From assembly GCA_003223245.1 (NCBI GenBank), contig QHYI01000136.1, positions 55,764-119,763 of the forward strand: 64,000 nt of DNA. Reading direction: 5' to 3'. The translations under genes were made by a program, and so were the position numbers. Position 1 is the stretch's first letter. Each line of letters starts with the position of its first letter. The notes under the pieces were generated by a model. It was not told where the DNA came from and did no database searches. It saw nothing but the letters and a program-made list of their open reading frames with translations. This stretch comes from Acidobacteriota bacterium (lineage in GTDB: Bacteria > Acidobacteriota > Terriglobia > Acidiferrales > UBA7541). Of this stretch, positions 25,556-27,997 are shown one piece after another.

Positions 25556-26575
25556 ATGTTGAACCTGCGGTTGAAGACGGCGCTAAAGTGCTTGGGATTC
25601 TTGATAACGGCAGGACTCGTCACCGGCATTGTTTACGAGCAAATAGGTAAGACACGAGATCGAAGGCGGCTCCCGCAAATTGGAAGGTCGGTGGACATGG
25701 GAGACCGGAACCTCAACATCTCCTGTTTGGGAACGGGTGGGCCGCCCGTTATCTTCGAGTCTGGCGGAGCAGGACCAGGACTCGGATGGCAGCCCTTGCA
25801 GGCCGAAGTTGCCAAGTTTACCCAGGCCTGCTGGTACGACCGCGCGGGCGAAGGCTGGAGCGACCTAGGTCCCTTCCCGCGAACCAGCGTTGCGATTGCC
25901 AAAGATCTTCATGAGCTCTTGGAACGAGCGGGCGTGCTGCCGCCGTATGTCTTCGCTGGCGCATCCATTGGCGGTATGAACTCGCGCGTCTACGGCAGCC
26001 TTTATCCCAAAGAAGTAGCGGGAATGGTGCTCATCGACTCCGCGCACGAAGATGAACTTGAACGCGCACCCAAGTTTTACCTAGCTCATGCAGTGCCGCG
26101 ACTCCTCCGTCACCCTCTCTATGTTGCTTTAGAAACCGCCGCGTTTGTTGGCTTGATACGACTCATGGAACCTTCTCCAGCTAAAGAAAAGGACTCCTCG
26201 CAAATGACTCGCGAAGAGATCATTGCGGCTCTGAGGGCACAACCAAAGTCGTTTGTAGGGGACGCTGCAGCCGGCGTCGTCTTGCCTGAAAGCTACCAGG
26301 AAGCGAAAGCAGTCGTGAGGTTGCGGAATTTTCCTTTGATTGTTTTGACGGCGGGACAATCGTTCGATTTCCGAAATGCGGAATTGAACAGAGAAGCGGC
26401 AGCGTATCAGCAAGTTTGGATTCACGAAATCCAGCCAAAAGTCGTGAAGCTATCCACCCGCGGACGCCAGATCGTTGTCCCAAATGCCACGCACGGCACG
26501 ATCCCCCGCGAAGTCACCCTCAGCTCGATACGCGAGGTAGTCAACGAAGCCCGCGGCGAAGCTTCGGGCCATTAG
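25556..26575 (+). CDS. membrane-anchored alpha/beta hydrolase
   Basis: A 339-residue protein from the ATG at 25556 (GAGGAA upstream; a GTG at 25517 is less likely). One N-terminal helix (LGFLITAGLVTGIVYEQ) anchors or exports it. The fold is clear: oxyanion loop FESGGAGPG, CWYDRAGEGWSD, nucleophile elbow AGASIGG (Ser at ~144), and a late catalytic His in PNATHG. The acid residue is probably in the LIVLTAGQSFDFRN region. An esterase or proline-iminopeptidase-like activity is plausible but unproven. It is the last intact gene before the decayed stretch 26.6-28.0 kb. Confidence 0.82.
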   Translation: MLNLRLKTALKCLGFLITAGLVTGIVYEQIGKTRDRRRLPQIGRSVDMGDRNLNISCLGTGGPPVIFESGGAGPGLGWQPLQAEVAKFTQACWYDRAGEGWSDLGPFPRTSVAIAKDLHELLERAGVLPPYVFAGASIGGMNSRVYGSLYPKEVAGMVLIDSAHEDELERAPKFYLAHAVPRLLRHPLYVALETAAFVGLIRLMEPSPAKEKDSSQMTREEIIAALRAQPKSFVGDAAAGVVLPESYQEAKAVVRLRNFPLIVLTAGQSFDFRNAELNREAAAYQQVWIHEIQPKVVKLSTRGRQIVVPNATHGTIPREVTLSSIREVVNEARGEASGH

Positions 26576-26581
26576 ACAACC

Positions 26582-26676
26582 ATGATTCTGAAGCAAGATG
26601 GCAACCAGGTGGCAGGAAGGGTAGGACCGAATGACGAGGAACCGCTGCCGTTTGAGGGCGGGAAGGTCGAAGGCAA
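26582..26676 (+). pseudogene. fragment of a secreted-protein repeat domain
   Basis: Thirty codons read MILKQDGNQVAGRVGPNDEE and PLPFEGGKVEGNAV. This resembles a small beta-domain (LKQDGxxLTGxVG...GKVxG) recurrent in acidobacterial exported proteins. It has a stop codon just before it and no continuation after ~26676, where a fragment on the other strand begins. Confidence 0.45.
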
Positions 26677-26823
26677 CGCTGTCCTGCGTGATTCCGAGCT
26701 TCCCGGCGACGCGTGCCTGCGTGAGCTTGCGAGCCTTTCGGGAAGCGCGCTCCGTTCGCATGTCTTTGTCAAGAGCGTCGAATTCCGGTTTGACTCGTCG
26801 GCCAGCTCGACGGCCCATTTCAC
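26672..26823 (-). pseudogene. HigBA-like toxin-antitoxin remnant, fused and frameshifted
   Basis: From GTG 26823 the minus strand reads VKWAVELADE, then loses one base near 26792 and continues in the next frame as KPEFDALDKDMRTE. These two together are the start of a HigB/RelE-type toxin. Without a toxin core it then runs into RKARKLTQARVAGKLGITQD, the helix-turn-helix of the HigA/XRE antitoxin. Both genes are truncated and joined by deletion; no functional module can be made. Confidence 0.6.
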
Positions 26824-27018
26824 GACTATGAGTATGGGATGTAATCCATATGGAGTCAGGCCCATTGTTTCCGGCGAAGACATCTCGTCGTTCCCTGTGG
26901 CGGGGCTACGATTCAGCCGGGATGGTACGGGAAGGTAAACCGCTTGCCTATTCCATCTGGGAAAATCAACGTACGGGACTGTCTAAAGTGTACCGTTGAC
27001 GAACTACCTGCTCATAGT

Positions 27019-27607
27019 TGTCCGCGCCGGTTTAAAAAAGCAGCAGTTTCGCCGGTTTGATCGGCAGCAGTCGATGTGACTTTTCGGGTGCGGGCACATG
27101 AGGGCGGGACCGAGGGGGTGAGCACACGGTCTTGAGCTGGAGTTTTTTCCCTGCGCCGTGATTCAGTCCAAGTGGAAGACCTCCCGCGCCGTCAGCAGGA
27201 ACGGGAACGCTAGAGCACTGGGCGTGGCTGGTGTCGAGCCGGACCAATTCGATCACCAGATAAAGTTTATCGGCAATGTTGACTTTACCCGCCACGCAAT
27301 CGGCCTGGCCAGGCACGAAGGGGCGGCTTTGCTGGAGTCATGCAGCCGATAAACGCTGCGTGTCGTGGTCAACCAGCGGCAACACCTGCACACGACCCCG
27401 TACTCCTTCAGCGCGAACAACGTGTGATTGGCGCTCACAGACAAGAACGCGGACACGAGAATATCAGAACTTTAGAAAATTACTTCCGAGAGTTTTCATT
27501 TTTTTTCGGATATAGAGACTGCTATAGAGTTTTTTACCGCGTCCCCGCCGATGGGGCGCTGCTCACTAAACCGGCAGAATTGCTGCTCTTTTAGGCCGGT
27601 GCCGACA
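27019..27607. mobile_element. 589-bp non-autonomous mobile element with terminal inverted repeats and 6-bp target duplication
   Basis: The left end (TGTCCGCGCCGGTTTAAAAA...) and the inverted right end (TGTCGGCACCGGCCTAAAAG...) match at 32 of the first 40 positions without gaps. Each end contains a second subrepeat at ~25-bp spacing (GCCGGTTT...GCAGCAG). CATAGT is duplicated exactly at 27013-27018 and 27608-27613, immediately outside the ends, as a target-site duplication. The TGT ends with internal subterminal repeats recall IS21-family termini (inference). No transposase (DDE or IstB-like) can be read inside, so it would need a transposase in trans. Confidence 0.75.
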
Positions 27608-27659
27608 CATAGTCGGCGAATCAGCGTTTGTCTGTGAGAATCCGCGGCTGGTGCTTAGA

Positions 27660-27708
27660 ATAAAAACTGAGCCGGGGCGCTTCGCTGAGGGGCCAAGGCA
27701 CCCCGGCT
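27660..27708 (-). terminator. rho-independent-type hairpin on the minus strand
   Basis: On the minus strand, AGCCGGGG pairs with CCCCGGCT around a ~23-base apical part and is followed by CAGTTTTTATT. It could end transcription from the PilZ gene 290 bases upstream. Its sequence also looks like a dispersed repeat. The rest of 27608-27997 has no recognisable gene. Confidence 0.5.
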
Positions 27709-27997
27709 GATCCTGCCCGCCTCCGCAGGGTGCGAGCAAGAAACCCGGAAGAGATTTTTTCGCAGACTGCATAAGCAGACTGCTGAAAGTGTTTGGCCTT
27801 TCTTCAGGGGCGTTGCGCGACCTGGGCAGAAGCTCAGGCCACGCCGGCCTCTTCAGAATAAGGCAATCCGCGGGCACTAAAGATCCCGTCTTCAAGCACG
27901 CGCCTGCCGGACCTCCGCGTACACCTAGCCCGGAGACTTTGGTCGAGCGGAACGTGCGTGGCGAGCCGGTGGGACTTGCGGCTTCGCCGAAAAGAAT

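Follow-up and report, generated by a model that had tools for sequence, protein, structure and literature searches.

Elements of the IS21 family are usually treated as two-gene machines. The family duplicates 4-8 bp of its target and transposes through a circular or tandem intermediate. Mobile insertion cassettes (MICs) carry a passenger gene. Ends with two repeats are described for IS21, and a 5-bp target duplication for IS5376, in the relevant parts of PMC10122671. For Paracoccus members of the family a duplication of 7 or 8 bp is given, and multi-ORF structures are named as typical of IS21 and IS66 members (passages in PMC3281130). Transposase-less IS-related elements can be activated by a cognate transposase according to passages in PMC3129680 and PMC3281130.

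The window, i.e. the whole 64,000-nt stretch of acidobacterial DNA analysed here, contains an element of exactly 589 bp (27019-27607) with CATAGT on either side. We consider it very probable that this block is the remnant of an IS21-family transposon after internal deletion, a statement that also covers decay in place. Its features are as follows.

27013..27018, no strand: CATAGT, left copy of the target-site duplication (end-pair scan)
27019..27607, minus strand: non-autonomous IS21-family element of 589 bp; the coding direction of the parent is the minus strand of the window
27019..27068, plus strand: right end of the parent (ORF3 side), with TGTC tip and two direct repeats 25 bp apart
27167..27450, minus strand: frameshifted remnant of ORF3, a predicted OB-fold gene; upstream limit inferred from alignments
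27180..27202, minus strand: right subterminal block GTTCCTGCTGACGGCGCGGGAGG, starting 184 nt from the right tip (23-mer conservation scan)
27510..27557, minus strand: left subterminal block, GACGCGGTAAAAAACTCTATAGCAGTCTCTATAT from 65 nt inside the left tip plus the preceding ~14 nt
27558..27607, minus strand: left end of the parent (istA side), with TGTC tip and two direct repeats 25 bp apart
27608..27613, no strand: CATAGT, right copy of the target-site duplication (end-pair scan)

An earlier note on this DNA had described a 589-bp element with inverted ends matching at 32 of 40 positions, internal subrepeats of ~25 bp and flanking CATAGT, all of which an end-pair scan confirmed. Over a longer stretch 38 of 50 positions are identical. 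Among 20,793 TGT...ACA pairs 200-4000 bp apart in the whole window, the ends of the block form the only pair with at least 26 of 40 matches; a general repeat finder did not report them as an inverted pair. Both ends start with TGT and hold two direct repeats, as is characteristic of IS21 (alignment A5), and the 25-bp period of the subrepeats is seen in the CCGG units of the aligned ends. The 6-bp CATAGT agrees with the short target duplication of the family, and random position pairs 400-700 bp apart show a 6-nt direct repeat at a rate of 0.0004. A model of the ends matched both tips with E ~1e-11, values that are flattering as the tips of the window are part of the model. Neither IstA nor IstB matched inside the element, and its three ORFs gave no NCBIfam match at E up to 1 and a single chance-level Pfam match (E 0.26), which bears out the absence of a readable transposase. 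The block is not empty, though: it contains the frameshifted remnant of ORF3, with 62% identity in the tblastn match at 27167-27385. As neither istA nor istB is encoded, the element is a derivative of the IS21 family, not a full member of it.

The parent was reached through a partial match of the block in a related genome (L002, contig G041:C82), which encodes the last part of IstA, all of IstB and, downstream, a small ORF3, to which the interior of the window element aligns. Full-length elements of 3.4-3.5 kb with the gene order ORF0-istA-istB-ORF3 occur in related Acidobacteriota. Examples measure 3416 bp (G182:C40, duplication GTCTTG), 3496 bp (G178:C142, identical 40-bp ends, no duplication seen) and 3521 bp (L110, duplication GTACGC). 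The search for a full-length IstA/IstB-encoding relative was thus successful, and the homology of the ends of these elements to those of the window element supports the suggestion that the block is non-autonomous and of IS21 type. IstA combines rve and Mu-transpos_C_2 domains and IstB belongs to PF01695. In L088 IstA matched PF22483 (E 1.1e-12) and PF00665 (E 4e-10), both over the cut-off, as expected of a DDE/rve transposase; IstB of L002 matched PF01695 (E 6.1e-60) and NF038214 over its cut-off, as expected of the AAA+ helper. The genes istA and istB are adjacent, with overlapping frames in L032, and ORF0 encodes a small protein with CxxC motifs.

With ORF3 as query, 8 of 201 genomes gave matches, one of them the own genome. 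Scanning of genome contigs gave 30 ORF3 loci, several of them from the same genomes; 27 lie in records whose labels name Acidobacteriota lineages, and the other three come from MAGs carrying the labels Alphaproteobacteria, Bacteroidetes and Bradyrhizobium. By our own count, 24 of the 30 have a complete or partial istB immediately upstream of ORF3, the exceptions being L098, L106, L108, L114, L116 and L117. In a scan of viral contigs 18 stretches fitted a pattern, none of them a relative.

The parent shares with IS21 and IS5376, as far as the cited passages describe them, the istA/istB core encoding a DDE transposase and a DnaC-related AAA+ helper, the two-repeat ends and the short duplication. 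In contrast to these, its branch adds ORF0, ORF3, a conserved intergenic element and subterminal blocks, whereas the window copy lacks istA and istB. No IS21 element with genes like ORF0 and ORF3 was recognised in the literature searched, mostly at title level, nor did such an intergenic element or subterminal blocks turn up there. What is new here is a four-gene IS21 branch in soil Acidobacteria that is unusual for the family, while the window element is a derivative of a known kind. Like MICs and MITEs, as characterised in the cited sources, it has IS ends and no transposase of its own. As to movement, two placements are on record for a sister type of 612 bp and none for the window copy. Unlike in MICs, the passenger is the parent element's own gene, broken in several copies. 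No IS21-derived MIC was found in the literature searched, again mostly by title.

Several parent copies showed additional features. In two copies from one MAG (L092 1845-4430, L101 1829-4309) istB is split close to the Walker A codons by an insert of ~2.5 kb, which has almost the same left edge in the two copies and in L092 encodes a 696-aa serine recombinase (PF00239, PF07508). The palindromic motif CGGAGTYCGCATAAAAAYGGACTCCGCATTAA marks the start of the istB match at about codon 212 in two further parents (L093 4673, L115 841) and could be the border of a further insert. An open frame with rve and HTH_21 domains (L030 5422-6495), in our reading an IS3-type transposase, lies 12 bp from the end of the G182 full-length element and is apparently a nested insertion. 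Distant relatives of ORF0 with 30-37% identity were found on three plasmids (L132, L133, L134), upstream of recombinase/ParB/RepB or ParB/HTH/ATP-binding genes; this hints that ORF0 is a more widespread accessory protein of mobile elements.

The gap between istB and ORF3 contains a stretch of ~64 nt common to all 24 istB-linked loci, with a mean column identity of 84%. A stem model fits with 94.4% paired cells, 4 of 17 pairs are changed on both sides, and the covariation score was reached by none of 500 shuffles. Further pair types were no commoner than in shuffles (326 of 500 as high), one stem pair is unpaired in 11 of 22 rows, and the fold z-scores of five members range from +0.33 to -3.43. 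Because related sequences can exceed shuffles without any structure, this mixed support argues only moderately for a structured RNA; a conserved DNA binding site is a possible alternative. Rfam yielded no family at gathering or relaxed thresholds. Among 24 sources searched with a model, the element was present in L030, L033 and L034, all of which bear istB, and absent from the other 21, including the window and the searched mini-element loci. Throughout the phylum at least 2 of 297 genomes have it, in both cases between istB and ORF3; with 17 candidates scored per genome this number is a lower bound.

ORF3 matched no family over cut-off in Pfam, NCBIfam or PADLOC, no PHROG below E 0.1 and no PDB sequence. 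Sub-threshold Pfam matches (RMI2, E 0.044; AfaD, E 0.077) were not taken as evidence of membership, and one weak partial match on a plasmid (E 0.007) was regarded as chance. The median dN/dS of 0.18 over the first 76 codons indicates purifying selection overall; it derives from 220 of 276 pairs among 24 loci, one of them a mini-element, 56 pairs with dS outside 0-1.5 being left out. An AlphaFold2 model built from 27 sequences has five strands and a mean pLDDT of 81.7, with values above 90 in ten-residue blocks over residues 1-50 and a low-confidence tail at 79-94. OB-fold proteins, SSBs, RPA and PriB among them, dominate both lists of PDB structures obtained with this model. Foldseek gave a best E of 0.0038 and nothing at or below 0.001, and VIA Z scores were 8.6-10.2 among the 50 matches listed. 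Close structural matches were the mitochondrial SSB Rim1 (6cqk; Z 9.7, rmsd 2.2, 73 residues), PriB (4fdb; Z 9.4, rmsd 2.2, 73 residues) and SSB (1kaw; Z 8.6, rmsd 2.4, 72 residues), at sequence identities of only 12-14%. Unrelated OB folds (RecO, LEF-3, tRNA synthetases, CusF) score like SSB and PriB; what is shared is the fold only. A five-stranded OB fold is well supported as a prediction, and ORF3 may be a ssDNA-binding protein.

Besides the full-length elements we delimited seven mini-elements of similar build (503-618 bp), including that of the window.

Window: 589 bp, duplication CATAGT
G018:C13: 618 bp, duplication CACGAC
G018:C85: 612 bp, duplication AATATGGA
G000:C92, a different contig of the window's own genome: 612 bp, duplication AAAAGTA
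L108: ~560 bp, right tip lost in Ns
G193:C116: 503 bp, duplication GCCGCG
G083:C273: 504 bp, no duplication

The 612-bp elements of G000 and G018, two species, are identical at 592 of 612 positions, carry different duplications, have 300-bp flanks without similarity and contain a frameshifted ORF3 in both cases. Occurrence at two unrelated sites with ORF3 broken in both implies that this type has moved, presumably in trans, and it looks as if both copies carry the same dead ORF3. Exact duplications of 6-8 nt were present at 7 of 12 elements with both ends defined, full-length ones included, and absent from 5; this set leaves out L108, treats L090 as the same element as L033 and does not count a 7-of-8 match at L148. 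In a tree of 30 ORF3 rows the window copy is joined to L088 with support of 99/98. Its five mini-elements are placed with different relatives, and the supported branches force at least three changes of the mini label, L098 being entered as full though without istB and L114 being a solo row. Most simply, mini-elements arose by at least three separate deletions; one gain and two losses would formally also be possible.

Searching with the end model, which makes no use of ORF3, added two of the seven, G083:C273 and G193:C116, in which at most the last codons of ORF3 are recognisable. These weaken the impression, gained with ORF3 as bait, that retention of this gene is a rule of mini-element formation. 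In G018, eight tip matches resolve into two pairs and four single tips of copies cut by contig edges. Four solo-end matches (L137, L138, L139, L140) have no second end over threshold nearby and were classed as remnants, not mini-elements; L141 had one end in this check, and a separate search provided a weaker partner end.

Two subterminal blocks are common to mini-elements and parents. In 12 of 13 elements the left block lies 61-83 nt from the left tip; in L102 the distance is 133 nt. The right block is present in all 13 (7 mini-elements, 6 full-length), 182-199 nt from the right tip and with 0-8 mismatches in 23 positions; the distance is approximate for L108. The patterns were drawn from the same sequences, the right one from the window's own letters, so its perfect match there is uninformative, and the shuffle control covers the right block in four mini-elements. 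A pattern-free scan of all 567 23-mers of the window element also found the right block best conserved in five other mini-elements, with 2, 1, 2, 6 and 2 mismatches (13 in total; median over 23-mers 47). The next separate group is the left subterminal stretch (element positions 50-78), and the best 23-mer starting in the body of ORF3 (158-383) has 37 mismatches. In G083 and G193, which show no other recognisable trace of ORF3, five 23-mers of the left block come before the right block, which is sixth of 567. Upstream regions of further full-length loci contained the left block in 4 of 6; L097 starts too near ORF0 to contain it, and L099 showed no match. In full-length elements GTTCCTGCTGACGGCGCGGGAGG forms 3' codons of ORF3. 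Conservation of the blocks where ORF3 is dead or gone points to constraint at the DNA level, and most simply they would be cis sites for transposition. Read as a natural deletion series, the mini-elements suggest a cis requirement of ~115 bp at the left end and ~190 bp at the right end.

Compared with L032 (the same element as L088), the left end, ORF3 region and right end of the window element are 83, 82 and 75% identical, and ~3 kb between left end and ORF3 are missing, with a junction blurred over ~60 bp. We propose that a parent with ORF0, istA (DDE transposase), istB (AAA+ helper), the ~64-nt element and ORF3 (predicted OB fold) suffered a deletion that would have fused ~100-160 bp of the left end to the start of ORF3, with loss of ORF0, istA and istB. 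The window copy would then have retained both two-repeat ends, both subterminal blocks and an ORF3 that is now frameshifted. Mini-elements would be expected to move if the cell also contains an IstA/IstB pair able to recognise their ends; IstAB probably mobilises them in trans, and the window copy itself may have moved as a mini-element rather than shrunk in place. The earlier note took the intact duplication as a sign of little later rearrangement. It does not indicate a young copy, as ORF3 is frameshifted and shares just 80% identity with the closest full-length element.

The same note regarded lack of any other copy as an argument against transposition, and for the own genome (6.3 Mb, 237 contigs) the test did turn out this way, with one copy of the 589-bp sequence. 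The block matched 6 of 101 genomes (the own and 100 others), the other five in part only. A query with one IstA protein found matches of only 25-26% identity in the fragmented own assembly, and thus no close mobilising partner there. Six relatives provided no empty site; they have a homologous right flank, and the DNA adjoining it bears no relation to the left flank of the window element. On the right, a non-coding stretch of ~86 nt (27662-27748) follows 3' of a PilZ-domain gene (PF07238). Of 35 other genomes of the genus, 31 contain it at 84-99% identity; no Rfam family reaches its cut-off, and the stretch may be an RNA or a DNA site that is conserved but unrecorded. In the left flank, a minus-strand frame (26450-26818) matches the helix-turn-helix family HTH_3 below threshold (E 0.016) and may be a decayed regulator; several relatives have parts of this region on other contigs.

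As the window copy is single, its deletion may have happened in place: a four-gene element inserted here and later lost ORF0, istA and istB, so that the block never travelled as a mini-element. This sub-case of the explanation given above is conceivable but rather unlikely. It agrees with the lone copy, the broken ORF3 and the lack of a close partner in the assembly, and would leave a target duplication of the same appearance; yet relatives hold mini-elements of the same build, one type in several copies with different duplications, and the still recognisable tips and subterminal blocks of the window element speak weakly against decay as well. A mobile insertion cassette selected for its passenger, in which ORF3 was kept for a benefit of the OB-fold protein to element or host, seems improbable to us. 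The purifying selection on ORF3 and its open frame in the 618-bp mini-element and in L108 would fit such a cassette, but the window element and both 612-bp copies have a frameshift in the gene, the 612-bp type was placed at two sites despite this, and in the two mini-elements from the ORF3-independent search all but its 3' end is unrecognisable. A chance inverted repeat beside a chance hexamer, without any transposable element, found no evidence in its favour and can practically be dismissed: the ends of the block are the best of the 20,793 pairs tested in the window, the end model matches both tips, if with flattered values, and transposase-encoding full-length elements carry homologous ends, which refutes this reading.

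Speculatively, and with doubts of our own, we suggest that the parent lineage carries a replication-type module: ORF3, as an OB-fold ssDNA-binding or primosome-like protein whose expression or recruitment is governed by a conserved structured element downstream of istB, might together with the DnaC-related IstB link transposition to fork assembly or strand protection, and the subterminal blocks might serve as the cis sites that go with it. A branch in which an OB-fold protein and a conserved intergenic element accompany the DnaC-related helper would make a handover from transposon to host replication testable.
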